Part shown: piece after piece, positions 1-32,696 of the stretch
How the letters are laid out: every line of letters starts with the position of its first letter
How positions within the stretch are numbered: the first letter of the stretch is position 1
NCBI RefSeq assembly: GCF_014243345.1
Contig: NZ_JACLZF010000002.1
Location: forward strand, 434,001-498,000
DNA length: 64,000 nt
Source of the DNA: Robiginitalea sp. SC105
GTDB lineage: Bacteria > Bacteroidota > Bacteroidia > Flavobacteriales > Flavobacteriaceae
Reading direction: 5' to 3'
The notes under the pieces: generated by a model
Told to the model about the DNA's origin: nothing
Databases searched by the model: none
Seen by the model: the letters and a program-made list of their open reading frames with translations, nothing else
Program-made: the position numbers and the translations under genes

Positions 1-978
1 GGCGGCAATCTTATAGGGGTCACCGTTGGATGCCGGGCGACGGTCTTCCAGCCAGCCTTTCCAACCTTTCTCCACGGTCATGATCGGGATGCGGATAGAT
101 GCCCCGCGATCCGATACGCCATAGCTGAAGTCATGGATGGATGCGGTTTCGTGCTTTCCGGTAAGGCGCTCATCGTTGTAGGCTCCGTACACTGCTATGT
201 GTTCCTTGGTAACCGGGCGGAACGCCTCGCACACTTTTTCATAGATCTCCTTGGAGCCTGCCGTACGCAGCAGCGTATTTGAGAAGTTGGCGTGCATGCC
301 GCTTCCGTTCCAGTCCCCTTTGACCGGTTTCGGGTGGTATTCAATGTACCAGCCGTAATCTTCTGTCAGGCGATCCAGCAGGTAGCGCGCTACCCAGATC
401 TGGTCCCCGGCGTTTTTGGCGCCCTTGGCAAAAATCTGGAATTCCCATTGTCCGCAGGCAACTTCCTGGTTGATCCCCTCGAAGTTCAGTCCGGCTTCCA
501 GGCAATAGTCCGCGTGGCGCTCCACCAGTTCGCGGCCGTGGGTGTTTTTCCCGCCCACGGAGCAGTAGTAAAGCCCCTGGGGTCCGGGGTATCCGCCGGG
601 AGGAAACCCGAGCGGCAGGTCGGTATGGGTATCCATGATAAAGTACTCCTGTTCGAAGCCGAACCAGAAATCGTCGTCGGCATCGGAATCGATCGTTGCA
701 CGGAAGTTGGAAGGATGAGGCGTACCGTCCGGATTCATGACTTCAGACATGACAAGATAACCGTTTTTGCGTGCCGGGTCGGGGTAGATGGCGACCGGTT
801 TCAGCAGGCAGTCCGAAGAACCGCCTTCGGCCTGTTGTGTTGAACTTCCATCAAAATTCCAAAGCGGACAGTCCTCCAGCTTTCCGCTGAAGTCAGGCTC
901 AATCTTTGTCTTACTTCTGAGGTTGGCTGTGGGGGTGTATCCGTCAAGCCAGATATACTCTAATTTTGCTTTGCTCAT
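1..978 (-). CDS. glnA: Glutamine synthetase, type II (3' end cut by window)
   Basis: Makes glutamine from glutamate, ammonium and ATP in the cytoplasm. Reading the minus strand from the ATG at 978 gives 326 codons without a stop before the window edge. It starts MSKAKLEYIWLDGY and holds family motifs FGFEQEYF, NGSGMHANFS and a GKHETASIHDFSYG block, which fit the short beta-grasp type II (eukaryote-like) enzyme of about 340 residues. Only the last dozen or so residues are missing. It is transcribed away from a type III glutamine synthetase at 1190, and the shared 211-bp gap carries GC-box palindromes. Family assignment is firm; the 3' end is not visible. Confidence 0.95.
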   Translation of the reverse strand, partial: MSKAKLEYIWLDGYTPTANLRSKTKIEPDFSGKLEDCPLWNFDGSSTQQAEGGSSDCLLKPVAIYPDPARKNGYLVMSEVMNPDGTPHPSNFRATIDSDADDDFWFGFEQEYFIMDTHTDLPLGFPPGGYPGPQGLYYCSVGGKNTHGRELVERHADYCLEAGLNFEGINQEVACGQWEFQIFAKGAKNAGDQIWVARYLLDRLTEDYGWYIEYHPKPVKGDWNGSGMHANFSNTLLRTAGSKEIYEKVCEAFRPVTKEHIAVYGAYNDERLTGKHETASIHDFSYGVSDRGASIRIPIMTVEKGWKGWLEDRRPASNGDPYKIAA

Positions 979-1015: not shown

Positions 1016-1047
1016 CAAAAATATAATAATTCATTGCTCATGTGCAA
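1016..1047 (-). promoter_or_regulatory. Candidate promoter of the type II glutamine synthetase
   Basis: On the minus strand TATTTTTG (1016-1023) matches the Bacteroidota -7 box TAnnTTTG, and a TTG (1045-1047) lies 21 bases upstream. It sits about 40 bases before the ATG at 978 and directly next to the G-run at 1053, so a factor bound there could touch the polymerase. Pattern match only. Confidence 0.5.
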
Positions 1048-1052
1048 TTTGA

Positions 1053-1111
1053 GGGGGGTATTTTATTAATAATAGGGCCATAATTATTAACACCCCCCAT
1101 TTTACGGGGGG
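1053..1111. promoter_or_regulatory. GC-box palindromes between the two glutamine synthetase genes
   Basis: A C6 run (1093-1098) and a G6 run (1106-1111) form a dyad around ATTTTAC. A further GGGGGGT (1053-1059) pairs with ACCCCCC (1092-1098), and inside that TTAATAAT (1066-1073) pairs with ATTATTAA (1083-1090). G/C runs framing AT-rich spacers are unusual here and resemble the two dyads upstream of the PII gene at 21036-21114; all three fit ACMCCC-N11-GGK. I infer a common nitrogen-control operator. Confidence 0.5.
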
Positions 1112-1189
1112 ATATTGAAAAAAAAATAATTTATCCGGAAAATTATACGAAATGTGTAATTTTAACGGCCATTCAGAATTCAAACACCT

Positions 1190-3364
1190 ATGAACCAATC
1201 ACATACGGATTCACAACAAACTGGTTTCCAGCATCCAAACAATACTATCCGACGTTCCGAATCCTTCGCCCGCCACGTCTTTAACGAAGACCGGATGCTG
1301 CAGTACCTGACTCGGGACGCCTTTGCCAGCGTGAAGGGCGCCATCTTCACCGGATCCAAGATCGACCGCAAAATCGCAGACCAGGTGGCGGAGGCCATGA
1401 AGGCCTGGGCGATCTCCGCGGGAGCGACCCACTATACCCATTGGTTCCAGCCCCTGACCGGTGCCACTGCGGAAAAGCACGATGCCTTTTTTGACCTGCT
1501 CCCGGACGGCCGGGCCATCGAAAAATTCGGCGGCGGGCAGCTGGTCCAGCAGGAACCGGATGCGTCCAGTTTCCCCAGCGGCGGGATCCGCAATACGTTC
1601 GAAGCCCGGGGGTATACCGCCTGGGACCCGACCTCCCCGGCTTTTATTTATGGCAACACGCTTTGTATCCCCACGATTTTTGTCTCCTATACCGGGGAGG
1701 CCCTGGACAACAAGGCCCCGCTCCTGCGGGCCCTGCATGCCGTGGACCAGGCAGCCACCGGGGTGGCCCGCTATTTTGACAAAAACGTCACCAAGGTGAA
1801 TGCCACCCTGGGATGGGAACAGGAATATTTCCTGATCGATGCGGAACTCGCCCGGACCCGGCCGGACCTGCTCCTGACGGGCCGCACCCTGGTGGGGCAG
1901 GCCGCCGCCAAGGGCCAGCAACTGGACGACCATTATTTCGGCGTTATCCCGGCACGGGCCTTCCGCTTTATGCGGGACCTGGAATCCGAATGCATGCTGT
2001 TGGGGATCCCGGTAAAAACCCGTCACAACGAGGTGGCACCCAACCAGTACGAACTGGCACCGGTTTTTGAAGAGGCCAACCTGGCCGTGGACCATAACCT
2101 CCTGCTGATGGACATCATGGACAAGGTGGCGGTGCGCCACGGCCTGCGTGTCCTGTTCCACGAGAAGCCGTTCGCCGGGATCAACGGGTCCGGGAAACAC
2201 AACAACTGGTCCCTCAGCACGGATACGGGCACCAACCTGCTGAGCCCCGGGTCCACCCCAATGAAAAACCTGCAGTTCCTGACCTTTTTTGTCAATACTA
2301 TCAAGGCCGTGGACCGGTACGAGGAATTGCTCCGGGCTTCGATTGCCTCGGCCAGCAACGACCACCGCCTGGGCGCCAATGAGGCCCCGCCTGCCATTAT
2401 TTCGATATTCGTCGGCAAACAGCTCACCGATGTGCTGGACGAACTCGAAGGGGTTTCCAAAGGGAAGCTTTCCCCCGAGGAGAAAACCGAATTAAAATTG
2501 AACGTGGTCGGCAAAATCCCTGAAATCCTGTTGGACAACACGGACCGCAACCGGACGTCCCCCTTCGCTTTTACCGGAAACAAGTTCGAGATGCGGGGGG
2601 TAGGGGCAAAGATGAATTGCGCCAAGCCCATGACGGTGCTCAACACCATTGTGGCCCATCAACTCCGTGAATTCAAGACGGAAGTGGACAAGCTGATCGC
2701 CAAAAAGAAACTCAAGAAGGACGAGGCGATTTTCAACGTCCTGAGGGAATATATCAAGAGCAGCCGCCGCATCCGGTTTGACGGGGACGGCTACAGCGAC
2801 CAGTGGCAGCAGGAGGCCGAGCGCCGCAAACTGAGCAACAACCGCACCACGCCCGCGGCCCTGAACATCCTCACTGCCCCCGAGACGCTGGAGCTCTTCA
2901 GCGCTACCGGGGTCATGACCGAAAAGGAAATTCGCGCCCGGAAGGAAGTGGAACTGGAAACCTATATCCTGCAGACCCAGATAGAGGGAAGGGTGCTGAG
3001 CGAACTGGTCTACAACAAGATCATCCCGGCCACCATTTCCTACCAGAACAGCCTGTTGCAGAACATCGCGGGCCTGAAAGATGTCTATGGGGCGGCCCAC
3101 AAAACCATGGGGGAAGCCCAGCTCGGCATCCTGGAGCAACTGGCGGAACACCTGCAGGCGGTCCGCAAAAAGACGGATGCGATGAACGAGGCCCGCAAGC
3201 GCGCAAACGGGCTGCGGGAAATCGATAAAAAGGCCAAAGCCTACTGCGAATCCGTCCTTCCGTTTTTTGACCAGATCCGGGACCATTGCGACCGCTTGGA
3301 ACGCCTGGTTTCTGACAAGGAATGGCCCCTGGCCAAGTACAGGGACCTGCTGTTTATAAAATAG
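1190..3364 (+). CDS. glnN: Glutamine synthetase, type III (GlnN)
   Basis: ATP-dependent glutamine synthetase of the large type III family, 724 residues, the usual size (700-730). Visible motifs are the N-terminal THWFQPLTG and EKHDAFF blocks typical of GSIII, the HNEVAPNQYELAP block, and the nucleotide/glutamate-site segment from H324 (HEKPFAGINGSGKHNN). The C-terminal third is helical, as in the family. The ATG at 1190 follows an AT-rich leader. It is divergent from a type II enzyme, so the cell has two unrelated-sized synthetases side by side. Type III enzymes are common in Bacteroidota and usually rise under nitrogen limitation; regulation here is inferred from the palindromes at 1053-1111. 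Confidence 0.97.
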   Translation: MNQSHTDSQQTGFQHPNNTIRRSESFARHVFNEDRMLQYLTRDAFASVKGAIFTGSKIDRKIADQVAEAMKAWAISAGATHYTHWFQPLTGATAEKHDAFFDLLPDGRAIEKFGGGQLVQQEPDASSFPSGGIRNTFEARGYTAWDPTSPAFIYGNTLCIPTIFVSYTGEALDNKAPLLRALHAVDQAATGVARYFDKNVTKVNATLGWEQEYFLIDAELARTRPDLLLTGRTLVGQAAAKGQQLDDHYFGVIPARAFRFMRDLESECMLLGIPVKTRHNEVAPNQYELAPVFEEANLAVDHNLLLMDIMDKVAVRHGLRVLFHEKPFAGINGSGKHNNWSLSTDTGTNLLSPGSTPMKNLQFLTFFVNTIKAVDRYEELLRASIASASNDHRLGANEAPPAIISIFVGKQLTDVLDELEGVSKGKLSPEEKTELKLNVVGKIPEILLDNTDRNRTSPFAFTGNKFEMRGVGAKMNCAKPMTVLNTIVAHQLREFKTEVDKLIAKKKLKKDEAIFNVLREYIKSSRRIRFDGDGYSDQWQQEAERRKLSNNRTTPAALNILTAPETLELFSATGVMTEKEIRARKEVELETYILQTQIEGRVLSELVYNKIIPATISYQNSLLQNIAGLKDVYGAAHKTMGEAQLGILEQLAEHLQAVRKKTDAMNEARKRANGLREIDKKAKAYCESVLPFFDQIRDHCDRLERLVSDKEWPLAKYRDLLFIK

Positions 3365-15275: not shown

Positions 15276-15740
15276 TTGAATATTAAGCTAGATAAGTTGC
15301 ATTGGAGTATCCTCTCCGCATTGCAGCAAAACGCGCGTATTTCCCTGTCCGCCCTGGGCCGGTCCATCGGGCTCACCCCGCCCGCCGTCGCGGAGCGGGT
15401 CAAGCGCCTGGAAGACCTTGGCGTGATCGAAGGGTACTGGACCGGGGTCTCCCACACCCGGGTAGGTTACCAGCTGAAGGCCATCATAACACTCCGGGCC
15501 TTTATGGGGAAACTCAAACCCTTTCTGGAACGGGTACGCAGCCTGGACGAAGTGATCAATTGTTACCGGATCACCGGAAATGAAAATATTATCATGGAGG
15601 TGGTCTTCCGCGACCAGTTCCACCTGGAGCGGTTCATTGACCAGTTGATCCAATACGGAGAAACGCGAACGCATATCATCCTTTCGGAGGTGATTTCCAA
15701 TGCCCCGATCCGCCGGATAACGGACTTGCCCCCGCCCTAG
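15276..15740 (+). CDS. Lrp/AsnC family transcriptional regulator
   Basis: 154 residues: an N-terminal winged helix (LHWSILSALQQNARISLSAL, then GLTPPAVAERVKRLEDLGVI) and a C-terminal RAM/ACT-like ligand domain (KAIITLRAFMGK ... VINCYRITGNENIIMEVV). Such proteins bind amino acids and control amino-acid metabolism. No ATG precedes the HTH, so the TTG at 15276 is the best start. It faces away from the helix-bundle gene. Targets and effector are unknown; the window also holds ilvE but no shared site was identified. Confidence 0.9.
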   Translation: MNIKLDKLHWSILSALQQNARISLSALGRSIGLTPPAVAERVKRLEDLGVIEGYWTGVSHTRVGYQLKAIITLRAFMGKLKPFLERVRSLDEVINCYRITGNENIIMEVVFRDQFHLERFIDQLIQYGETRTHIILSEVISNAPIRRITDLPPP

Positions 15741-19380: not shown

Positions 19381-20625
19381 TTAGTGTTGATTGAGTCGGA
19401 AATCGGAATAGGCATCCATTCCGTGTTCGTGGATATCGAGACCTTCCAGTTCTTCCTCTTTCGATACGCGGATCCCCACGGTTTTCTTGAGGGCCAGGAT
19501 GATGATGGCTGCAGAAATGATACAGAAGATCCCTGCGGCACCAACACCAGTCAGCTGGTACAGGAACTGGTCAACCCCTGCTTTGTCGCCGAAGATTCCG
19601 ACGGCGAGGGTCCCCCAGATACCACAAATGAGGTGGACGGTGACGGCACCTACCGGGTCGTCGAGGCGGATCCGGTCGATAAAGGCCACGCCCCCTACGA
19701 TAATGGCTCCCGCAATCAGGCCGATTACCACCGCCTCATTGGGTGACATCAGGTCTGCGCCAGCGGTGATTCCCACAAGCCCCCCGAGGATTCCGTTCAG
19801 GAACATGGTCAGGTCGTAATTCTTATATGCCAGGGTCGATACCACGAAGGCGCTTACCCCGCCGGCGGCGGCTGCCAGGGATGTGGTCACCAGCACCAGG
19901 GAGGTCAGTGCCGGGTCCCCGGAGAGTACGGAACCCCCGTTAAAACCAAACCATCCAAGCCACAGGATCAGCACCCCGGCTGTTGCCAGGGGGATATTGT
20001 GTCCCGGGATTGCCTTGGGTTTCCCGTCCTCACCGAATTTGCCAATCCGGGAGCCCAGCAACCAGATGGCGATCAGCGCTCCCCAGCCGCCAACAGAGTG
20101 GACCAGGGTAGAACCGGCAAAGTCATAAAAGCCCGCATCGTCCCCACCCAGGGTGGACAGGAAGCCGCCTCCCCATTGCCAGGAACCGACAATCGGGTAG
20201 ACCAGGCCTACGTAAATAATGGTAAAGACCATAAAGGGGCCTATCTTGACGCGTTCAGCGACAGCCCCTGATACAATGGTAGCTGCCGTAGCGGCAAACA
20301 TCCCCTGGAAGAGGAAATCCGTCCAGTAGGTATAGCCACCGTCTGCGTATTCCGGCGTCAGGCCGGCCGCGTCAGTCCCCAGGCCAAAGCCCGCGAAGCC
20401 GAGGTACCCGTTAAATTCCCCCGGGTACATCAGGTTGAACCCGCCGATATAATACATCAGCAGCCCAACGGTTATAATAAAAATGTTCTTGAACAGAATG
20501 TTGATGGTATTTTTCTGCCGTGTCAGGCCAATCTCGAGAAAGGCAAATCCGGTATGCATGAAGAACACCAGGGCGGTGCACACCATCATCCAGATGTTGT
20601 TTGCTGTAAATAATCCAGTATCCAT
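19381..20625 (-). CDS. amt: Ammonium transporter (Amt family)
   Basis: Inner-membrane ammonium channel, 414 residues from the ATG at 20625, about eleven membrane helices. Family marks include HTGFAFLEIGLTRQKN near the start, the twin pore histidines in STLVHSVGGWGAL and TVHLICGIWGTL, and LWLGWFGFNGGS. A longer upstream frame overlaps the PII gene and is not used. It lies 25 bases after the PII gene, the classic glnK-amtB pairing in which PII blocks the channel when nitrogen is plentiful. Confidence 0.97.
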   Translation of the reverse strand: MDTGLFTANNIWMMVCTALVFFMHTGFAFLEIGLTRQKNTINILFKNIFIITVGLLMYYIGGFNLMYPGEFNGYLGFAGFGLGTDAAGLTPEYADGGYTYWTDFLFQGMFAATAATIVSGAVAERVKIGPFMVFTIIYVGLVYPIVGSWQWGGGFLSTLGGDDAGFYDFAGSTLVHSVGGWGALIAIWLLGSRIGKFGEDGKPKAIPGHNIPLATAGVLILWLGWFGFNGGSVLSGDPALTSLVLVTTSLAAAAGGVSAFVVSTLAYKNYDLTMFLNGILGGLVGITAGADLMSPNEAVVIGLIAGAIIVGGVAFIDRIRLDDPVGAVTVHLICGIWGTLAVGIFGDKAGVDQFLYQLTGVGAAGIFCIISAAIIILALKKTVGIRVSKEEELEGLDIHEHGMDAYSDFRLNQH

Positions 20626-20650
20626 AATAAATTTCGTTGAGTTAGTTAGA

Positions 20651-20989
20651 TTAGTTGATGCCGGCGTGGCCGCTTTCCTTGGTTCTGATCCGGTAGGCTT
20701 CCACCACGTCCGAGACGAAAATTTTACCGTCTCCGACATTTCCGGTGTACGCCGTATCGAGGAGCGTATTTACTGTACGCTCCAGGAAATCGTCCGACAC
20801 CACGATGACCAGATACCTGCGCTGGATATCTGACGTGCTGTACGAAATGCCCCGGTAAACATGGCCCTGCTTTTCATTGCCAACACCGGTAACATCCCAA
20901 TAACTGAAGAAATTCACCTCAATCTGATGGAGGGCTTTTTTGACCTCATCAAATTTGGATTTTCGAATAATTGCTTCCACTTTTTTCAT
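20651..20989 (-). CDS. glnK: Nitrogen regulatory protein PII
   Basis: 112 residues, the standard PII length, starting at the ATG at 20989 (MKKVEAIIRKSKFDEV). The T-loop reads GHVYRGISYST; Tyr50 sits where E. coli PII has the uridylylated Tyr51, though the loop is a residue or two shorter and the surroundings differ. The ATP-binding GNVGDGKIFV and IRTKE segments are present. It is followed at once by amt, so I call it GlnK-type. Two tandem GC-box dyads lie 47-125 bases upstream. Confidence 0.95.
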   Translation of the reverse strand: MKKVEAIIRKSKFDEVKKALHQIEVNFFSYWDVTGVGNEKQGHVYRGISYSTSDIQRRYLVIVVSDDFLERTVNTLLDTAYTGNVGDGKIFVSDVVEAYRIRTKESGHAGIN

Positions 20990-21035
20990 GGGTATATGTT
21001 TTTGTTGATCGGGCCAAATATATATTAAAATGGAC

Positions 21036-21114
21036 ACACCCTTTGTTTGAAAGGGGTGTTAGCGGGTATTTTTATGTTTATCATAAAATGACCCCCCTAA
21101 AATTTAGGGTGTGT
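21036..21114. promoter_or_regulatory. Two tandem GC-box palindromes upstream of glnK-amt
   Basis: First dyad: ACACCC (21036-21041), eleven bases, GGGGTGT (21053-21059). Second: ACCCCC (21091-21096), eleven bases, GGTGTGT (21108-21114), with a perfect inner palindrome CCCTAAA-A-TTTAGGG (21095-21109). Their starts are 55 bases apart, about five helical turns. Both resemble the dyad between the glutamine synthetase genes. The rest of the 351-bp gap 20990-21340 shows no gene apart from repeats at its crcB end. Confidence 0.55.
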
Positions 21115-31532: not shown

Positions 31533-32696
31533 ATGTCCAGAATACTCGTAATTGAAGACGAAGCCGCCATCCGTCGCGTTTTGGTGAAAATCCTCACAGA
31601 GGAAAACGAGGCCTACCAGGTTGAAGAGGCCGAAAACGGTGCCCAGGGGCTCGAAAAGATCCGGAAAACGGATTACGATCTGGTTTTGTGCGATATCAAA
31701 ATGCCCAGGATGGATGGGGTGGAAGTATTGGAGGCAGGTCGCAAGAGCAAGCCGGAAACCCCGTTTATCATGATCTCCGGCCACGGGGACCTGGATACGG
31801 CCGTACAGACCATGCGCATGGGGGCTTTTGATTACATCTCCAAGCCGCCTGACCTGAACCGGTTGCTGACCACGGTGCGCAATGCCCTGGACCGCAAGGA
31901 ACTGGTCGCGGAAAACCGCATCCTCAAAAAGAAAGTCAGTAAAAACTTCGAAATGATCGGGGAGAGCGGGGAAATCCACGCCATCAAGGAAATGATCGAG
32001 AAGGTGGCACCGACCGACGCACGGGTCCTGATCACCGGTTCCAACGGGACCGGGAAGGAACTCGTAGCCCATTGGATCCACCAGAAAAGCCCCAGGGCCG
32101 GTGCGCCTTTTGTAGAAGTAAACTGTGCCGCCATCCCCTCCGAACTGATCGAAAGCGAACTTTTTGGCCACGTCAAGGGTGCCTTTACCTCGGCGGTCAA
32201 AGACCGGGCCGGTAAGTTTGAAACTGCCAACAAGGGGACCCTCTTCCTGGATGAGATCGGGGATATGAGCTTGTCGGCACAAGCCAAGGTGCTCCGGGCC
32301 TTGCAGGAAAGCAAGGTGTCCAGGGTGGGCTCCGACAAGGATATCAAGGTGGATGTACGGGTGGTGGCCGCCACCAACAAGGACCTGCAGAAGGAAATAG
32401 CAGATGGCAAGTTCCGGGAAGACCTCTATCACCGCCTGGCCGTCATCCTGATCCGGGTCCCTTCCCTGAATGAGCGCCGGGATGATATACCGCTGCTCAT
32501 AGAGCACTTTGCCAGGAAAATAGGGGAGGAGCAGGGCATAGCGCCCAAGCGCTTCTCGGACAAGGCCCTGAAGCTGCTCAGGGAATACGACTGGACCGGA
32601 AACGTCCGGGAACTCCGGAACGTGGTAGAACGCCTTGTCATCCTCGGTGGCAAGGAGGTAAGCGAAGAGGATGTTCGTCTCTTTGCTAGCAAATAG
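31533..32696 (+). CDS. Sigma-54-activating response regulator without visible HTH
   Basis: 387 residues. Receiver domain (1-120) with phosphorylatable D54 (DLVLCDIKMP), then an AAA+ sigma-54 activator (about 140-375) with Walker A GSNGTGKE, the sigma-contact loop GAFTSA at 216-221, Walker B GTLFLDEIGD and the WTGNVRELRN motif. It ends about 12 residues after that block, so the Fis-type DNA-binding domain of NtrC (usual length about 450-470) is absent. It may activate sigma-54 promoters from solution or with a partner. No histidine kinase is nearby. Confidence 0.93.
   Translation: MSRILVIEDEAAIRRVLVKILTEENEAYQVEEAENGAQGLEKIRKTDYDLVLCDIKMPRMDGVEVLEAGRKSKPETPFIMISGHGDLDTAVQTMRMGAFDYISKPPDLNRLLTTVRNALDRKELVAENRILKKKVSKNFEMIGESGEIHAIKEMIEKVAPTDARVLITGSNGTGKELVAHWIHQKSPRAGAPFVEVNCAAIPSELIESELFGHVKGAFTSAVKDRAGKFETANKGTLFLDEIGDMSLSAQAKVLRALQESKVSRVGSDKDIKVDVRVVAATNKDLQKEIADGKFREDLYHRLAVILIRVPSLNERRDDIPLLIEHFARKIGEEQGIAPKRFSDKALKLLREYDWTGNVRELRNVVERLVILGGKEVSEEDVRLFASK

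Follow-up and report, generated by a model that had tools for sequence, protein, structure and literature searches.

In many flavobacteria, the principal genes for taking up and fixing ammonium are preceded by paired DNA boxes built on CCC-N11-GGG, and we consider it likely that these serve as operators of a flavobacterial regulon dedicated to nitrogen assimilation, in which one conserved DNA-binding protein, putatively bound as dimers, would contact RNA polymerase and switch the genes on at nitrogen limitation. The nitrogen signal in this proposal is one that we infer from the target genes. Such a fixed-distance CCC/GGG switch points to a nitrogen-control system in bacteria that carry out much of the polymer degradation in marine and soil habitats, which are often short of nitrogen. 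Searching open-licence PubMed Central by titles and abstract starts, we found no prior description of this operator and no described regulator of ammonium assimilation in Bacteroidota.

Nitrogen-assimilation loci and their boxes in the window

The window, that is, the whole stretch of 64,000 nucleotides that was analysed (G000:C2:434001-498000), is part of a 3.58-Mb genome. It carries divergent genes for type II (GSII) and type III (GSIII) glutamine synthetases separated by a 211-bp gap, and a glnK-amt pair about 20 kb from that gap (Table 1). An initial annotation of this DNA had described C6/G6 palindromes in the GSII/GSIII gap. The runs themselves are present, and one of them lies within a full dyad (box B), while the GSII-side element (box A) proved to be only a half-site. 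The two dyads of similar build that the annotation had reported before glnK-amt were both found. Box A is the proximal site of the GSII promoter, 26-27 bp from the GSII -7 element and 53 bp from box B, which is probably both the distal site for GSII and the site for GSIII; a single box pair appears to serve both genes of the gap.

Table 1. Coordinates of genes, boxes and predicted promoter elements in the window.
Feature	Position	Strand	Remarks
glnA, glutamine synthetase type II (GSII)	1-978	-	PF00120, PF03951; truncated at window edge
Predicted GSII -7 promoter element, TATTTTTG	1016-1023	-	TAnnTTTG; consensus and position from the available text of PMC9723704
Box A, half-site GGGGGGT	1053-1059	.	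degenerate dyad, centre ~1049; G6 run at 1053-1058
Box B, full dyad ACACCCCCCATTTTACGGGGGGAT	1090-1113	.	centre 1102; C6-N7-G6 at 1093-1111
glnN, glutamine synthetase type III (GSIII)	1190-3364	+	PF12437, 7.7e-76
Lrp/AsnC gene	15276-15740	+	between GSIII and glnK
amt, ammonium transporter, after glnK	19381-20739 (listed ORF)	-	PF00909, 3e-110; true start probably ~20628
glnK (PII)	20651-20989	-	PF00543; start codon at 20989
Predicted glnK -7 element, TATATTTG	21015-21022	-	TAnnTTTG
glnK proximal dyad	21034-21061	.	centre 21047; 25 bp to -7 element; training-set member
glnK distal dyad	21087-21114	.	centre 21101; 23.7 bits; training-set member
Orphan NtrC-like response regulator	31533-32696	+	receiver + sigma-54-type ATPase (PF00158)

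The pattern by which the annotation had joined these boxes, ACMCCC-N11-GGK, is matched by all three full dyads (one in the gap between the glutamine synthetase genes, two before glnK), but it is too loose to be distinctive, with 7 matches in the window against a mean of 6.3 in shuffles. A genome-wide scan for the related pattern ACMCCC-N{8,11}-GGGKGT likewise gave 8 sites, as against 6 for its reversed control. Requiring CCC-N11-GGG with an A/T-rich core yielded 12 window matches versus 6 for the reversed control, at a cut-off that missed the dyad between the glutamine synthetase genes. The further claim that G/C runs are rare in AT-rich surroundings was borne out: 8 of 202 runs of at least 5 C or G had flanks (30+30 bp) with less than 40% G+C, and 4 of these 8 runs lie at the nitrogen boxes. 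Random placement had been named as grounds for giving up the idea of a shared operator; it describes the loose regular expression, whereas the idea itself survives. With the literal pattern at chance level, the pattern alone is no proof, and the weight of the argument rests on conservation.

The CCC-N11-GGG boxes are conserved in relatives

GSIII and PII genes were collected from 60 relatives and their upstream regions read, with boxes chosen by a rule of our own based on run length and A/T content. Under this rule, boxes of a form close to ACCCCTATTTTTTAGGGGT stood before the gene in 37 of 47 GSIII rows (one row having no upstream sequence) and before 17 of 32 distinct PII regions. Many of the box-less PII genes come immediately after another gene, such as a porin gene, and in two genomes (G031 and G032) GSIII is present and the boxes are absent.

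The core CCC-N11-GGG occurs in 67 of the 70 boxes, which were collected with run spacings from 6 to 13 allowed; because the runs are long, N10 also fits 53 of the 70 and N12 fits 55. In these 67 boxes the inner bases are A/T-rich, and C or T is favoured at -5, A at -10 and T or G at +9. CCC-N11-GGG was found in 203 of 477 upstream regions and the control GGG-N11-CCC in 9 of 477 (gaps shared by two genes being counted for both). At glnK promoters the two boxes of a pair lie about 53 bp apart, and upstream of GSIII the same spacing of about 53 bp is frequent between a half-site and a full dyad (51-54 bp in 33 measured GSII-GSIII gaps).

Models of the boxes recover further nitrogen genes

Two covariance models, one for paired boxes (R1, 41 sequences) and one for a single box (R2, 70 sequences), were trained on GSIII and glnK boxes only; their E-values are rough. 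The best R2 places in the genome of the window were ald, encoding alanine dehydrogenase (28.6 bits), the gap between the glutamine synthetase genes (25.4 bits) and the distal glnK dyad, followed by C2:215661 (19.9 bits), where an ORF that looks unrelated begins (L089), and the proximal glnK dyad (19.5 bits). The ald place was not in the training set, of which the gap and glnK boxes of this genome are members. A weak box (16.3 bits, E of 4) lies 313 bp before gltB, and gains weight because the nearest gltB dyad of relatives is likewise far upstream: a dyad was present in 19 of 31 gltB upstream regions (that of the window's genome included) at 287-360 bp, in 14 of them at 323-338 bp. These gltB dyad distances were measured to the likely start; in the survey of further sites described below, distances run to query residue 1, which for gltB lies 42 bp and for ald 24 bp before the likely start.

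Scanning 100 genomes of the family, we found paired sites (E<=0.1) in 71, for which the nominal E predicts about 10 chance matches, and none in the other 29; leaving aside the 17 training genomes, all of which matched, paired sites were present in 54 of 83. Among the matches listed, the best 30 loci all lie at nitrogen-assimilation genes (8 of them training sites), and so do all of 40 further sites, none used in training, that were picked by hand among rows not yet placed in a listing doubled by strand. Half of these 40 belong to familiar arrangements (14 GSII/GSIII, 1 GSIII, 5 PII-Amt) and the other 20 to promoter kinds absent from training (10 porin/gltB, 7 ald, 2 Amt, 1 gltB). The models have recovered nitrogen genes that they had not seen, namely ald, gltB, a porin-PII-Amt operon and a lone Amt gene. 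A lone box predicts poorly, since of 31 extra places among the matches listed in a single-box search of 39 relatives, only 4 were at ald (L186, L187, L188 and L200); the remaining places, judged by eye from printed stretches that did not always cover the box, were terminator-like, in gene interiors or due to chance.

One operator is common to glutamine synthetase, PII-Amt and glutamate synthase genes, which is the mark of a nitrogen-control regulon. The common operator that the initial annotation had proposed for both glutamine synthetases and PII-Amt is supported in this respect: it is kept in relatives and extends to ald and to gltB, the latter a gene that the annotation had also named.

In the genera with the porin/gltB arrangement (loci L136, L138, L141, L146, L153, L157, L164, L165, L169 and L171), boxes separate a divergent gltB from a BBP2 porin gene that has an Amt or PII gene beyond it. 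A separate palindrome, CGAAAACGTTTTCG, which we take to resemble LacI-family operators, occurs between the nitrogen box and gltB in L128 and L138 and, less perfectly, in L126 and L311; in the gltB loci that bear it, some 330 bp separate gltB from the nitrogen box upstream.

Box position relative to the -7 element is fixed in three promoter kinds

The available text of PMC9723704 gives the flavobacterial -7 element as TAnnTTTG at -12 to -5, which provides a reference point for the boxes. Dyad centres lay 24-28 bp (21 counts) and 78-80 bp (29 counts) before this element in glnK promoters, 25-27 bp (13 counts) and 78-80 bp (11 counts) before it in porin promoters, and 77-83 bp (30 counts) before it in GSII promoters. 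The GSII half-site was 23-29 bp before the -7 element in 28 of 33 measurable divergent GSII-GSIII gaps; 44 gaps were examined and 11 left out, 10 having no dyad by our rule and one no measurable half-site. These distances place the sites of glnK, porin and GSII promoters near -38 and -91.

GSIII promoters are mixed, with a peak at 37-38 bp (12 counts), one turn further up, 25-26 bp in 5 cases and the rest scattered. The upstream regions of ald and gltB keep no such register: TAnnTTTG occurs in 1 of 13 ald and 3 of 19 gltB regions, which does not exceed the shuffles. Among the 75 promoters that keep the register, only 13 have TTG, the core of the -33 element, in place. Sigma-54-like elements (9 of 11 bases matching, GG and GC kept) were absent from all 201 dyad-bearing upstream regions; shuffles gave 0 to 0.3 per set and 0.8 in all, so this absence excludes only a conserved element. 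At gathering scores Rfam matched nothing in the window, and at E<=0.1 nothing in six related loci.

Mode of action

An activator that contacts RNA polymerase is the reading favoured by the near-invariant phase to the -7 element, the box over the -33 region and the second site, five turns upstream. Judged from the DNA, the boxes are probably DNA operators on housekeeping promoters, with a putative dimeric factor at about -38 and about -91. A single conserved protein, as a dimer, would occupy each CCC-N11-GGG dyad with its A/T core; the proximal site would lie over the -33 region in glnK-amt, porin-PII-amt and GSII promoters, and the second some 53 bp, or five helical turns, upstream. The bound factor would touch RNA polymerase, and the genes would come on under nitrogen limitation. 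The main rival keeps the same operator and regulon and makes the reader a repressor that blocks the promoter at ample nitrogen. Coverage of the -33 region by the proximal box would suit it, and repression is the mode of several known nitrogen operators (GlnR of Bacillus, AmtR, NrpR), but we think it rather unlikely, since simple blocking would tolerate more drift than the nearly constant distance to -7 in three promoter kinds, with a second box 53 bp up, and the scarcity of TTG at the -33 place looks as if help were needed, not blocking. As to direction, matching genes of Prevotella ruminicola are described in the available text of PMC5552732 as higher with ample ammonium, opposite in sign to what is assumed here, so the direction of nitrogen control in the phylum is not to be taken for granted.

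Two other modes of control fit the promoters less well than a DNA-bound activator. Regulation through RNA hairpins or terminators is extremely improbable: the dyads are foldable and isolated single-box places elsewhere are often terminator-like, but the boxes of glnK, porin and GSII promoters lie upstream of -7 and so are not transcribed from those promoters, they are paired at 53 bp, and they match nothing in Rfam. NtrC-like control with sigma-54, which we regard as highly unlikely, can draw on PF00158 proteins in 32 of the 32 genomes tested, one of them in the window (Table 1). That control would sit poorly with dyad-bearing upstream regions devoid of a -24/-12 element. The window protein lacks a helix-turn-helix at its C-terminus and reads GAFTSA where GAFTGA is expected; the other conserved form (ATPase with helix-turn-helix) was also seen in genomes that have no GSIII, a group outside the box scan.

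Candidate readers

Proteins of four families (CRP, GerE, AsnC and PF00158) were sought in 32 genomes, 19 of them box-bearing and 13 for comparison; of the latter, G031 and G032 had no paired match, G037 and G052 had GSIII and no rule-based box, and nine had no GSIII and were unscanned for boxes. A reader of the CRP/FNR family, as the initial annotation had suggested, has the cyanobacterial NtcA as precedent, and its proteins occur in 17 of the 19 box-bearing genomes. This reading is disfavoured and in our judgement improbable, as HTH_Crp_2 (PF13545, E<=1e-4) is missing from G045 and G084, both with strong boxes (an absence that is not watertight, the genomes being only 92% and 90% complete), and the 14 bp between the centres of CCC and GGG are wide for a family whose members CRP and NtcA have half-site centres about 11 bp apart. 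An Lrp/AsnC protein, such as the one encoded in the window between GSIII and glnK or a second whose gene is some 2 kb away from the ald boxes (G000:C1:261105), is attractive for its position and because Lrp proteins can form octamers on phased sites, but the AsnC ligand domain (PF01037, E<=1e-6) is missing from 6 of the 19 box-bearing genomes (G042, G045, G048, G352, G235 and G321), five of which are 99% complete or better, which makes such a reader very improbable.

A LuxR/GerE protein was rejected as universal reader, PF00196 being missing from box-bearing G045 and G084 (92% and 90% complete), as was the NtrC-like protein of the window, which has no DNA-binding domain. The latter has 53-78% identity to 11 relatives that were fetched, six of which share GAFTSA; the L237 protein of the window's own genome was not among the sequences recovered. 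PF00158 matches of 385-405 aa also lie about 7-20 kb from glnK or GSIII in G005, G030, G064, G075, G078 and G084 (the sequence was read for G075), and an Lrp/AsnC gene lies 4-8 kb from glnK in G005, G030 and G064. No recurrent regulator gene was seen beside the targets among clustered neighbours in flanks of 1.5-2.5 kb (representatives, by eye) or in the portion read of 20 wider contexts, and no autoregulated reader gene among the 31 extra single-box places of the matches listed.

Taxonomic range of the boxes

Among 80 named glnK loci, boxes (E<=0.1, anywhere in the locus) were found in 26 of 36 from Flavobacteriaceae or near (L277-L311 and L347, one of them titled only Bacteroidetes) versus 2 of 44 others; the Prevotella-titled loci among these 44 had none. 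Christiangramia and Robiginitalea are represented among the loci with boxes (L292 and L279). Across the class, paired boxes were detected in at least 11 of 247 genomes, four of them in the same family, a lower bound given strict filters and at most 18 candidates scored per genome. Six of the seven matches outside the family, spread over a few other families, come from loci that include GSIII (L175, L176, L178, L179, L181 and L183, the site of L181 not being visible in the stretch printed). The seventh, L180, is a ribosomal-protein locus and was taken as chance. Few members of the class sample have PII at all (20 of 197, E<=1e-12), so the regulator could do without it as an intermediary.

A wider reading, which we hold only tentatively, is that much of Bacteroidota has a nitrogen master regulator from a protein family with no previous link to nitrogen control, which would read paired CCC-N11-GGG dyads five helical turns apart, act directly with the housekeeping sigma factor and use the same boxes at GSIII promoters of some other orders in the class. 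An operator as sharp and conserved as this one makes the question of the regulator testable, as it provides both a bait for pull-down and a defined list of targets.

Comparison with known nitrogen-control systems

Like the boxes, the site of GlnR and TnrA in Bacilli is a dedicated dyad that precedes nitrogen genes (glnA, glnK-amt, glt) with housekeeping promoters. These regulators belong to the MerR family, are encoded beside glnA and bind TGTNA-N7-TNACA; here, in contrast, CCC-N11-GGG pairs lie 53 bp apart and no regulator gene was seen beside the targets. A GlnR/TnrA-type site was rejected, the consensus being ACCCC..GGGGT. NtcA of cyanobacteria shares with our proposal an activator site near -40 before glnA, amt and glnB, again at housekeeping promoters, but it is a CRP-family protein that binds GTA-N8-TAC, and the CRP domain is missing from two box-bearing genomes. 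NtrC also uses tandem dyads before glnA and glnK-amtB; unlike the promoters described here, which have no -24/-12 elements, its targets require sigma-54. Within Bacteroidota, the ammonium-responsive set of Prevotella ruminicola is the closest parallel in gene content, with amtB, glnK, GSIII-2 and glutamate synthase genes changing together (PMC5552732), but the available text of that article names no motif, binding site or NtrC, and Prevotella-titled glnK loci are box-less. Operators shared among nitrogen genes are of a known kind, and the CCC-N11-GGG operator matches none of those compared.
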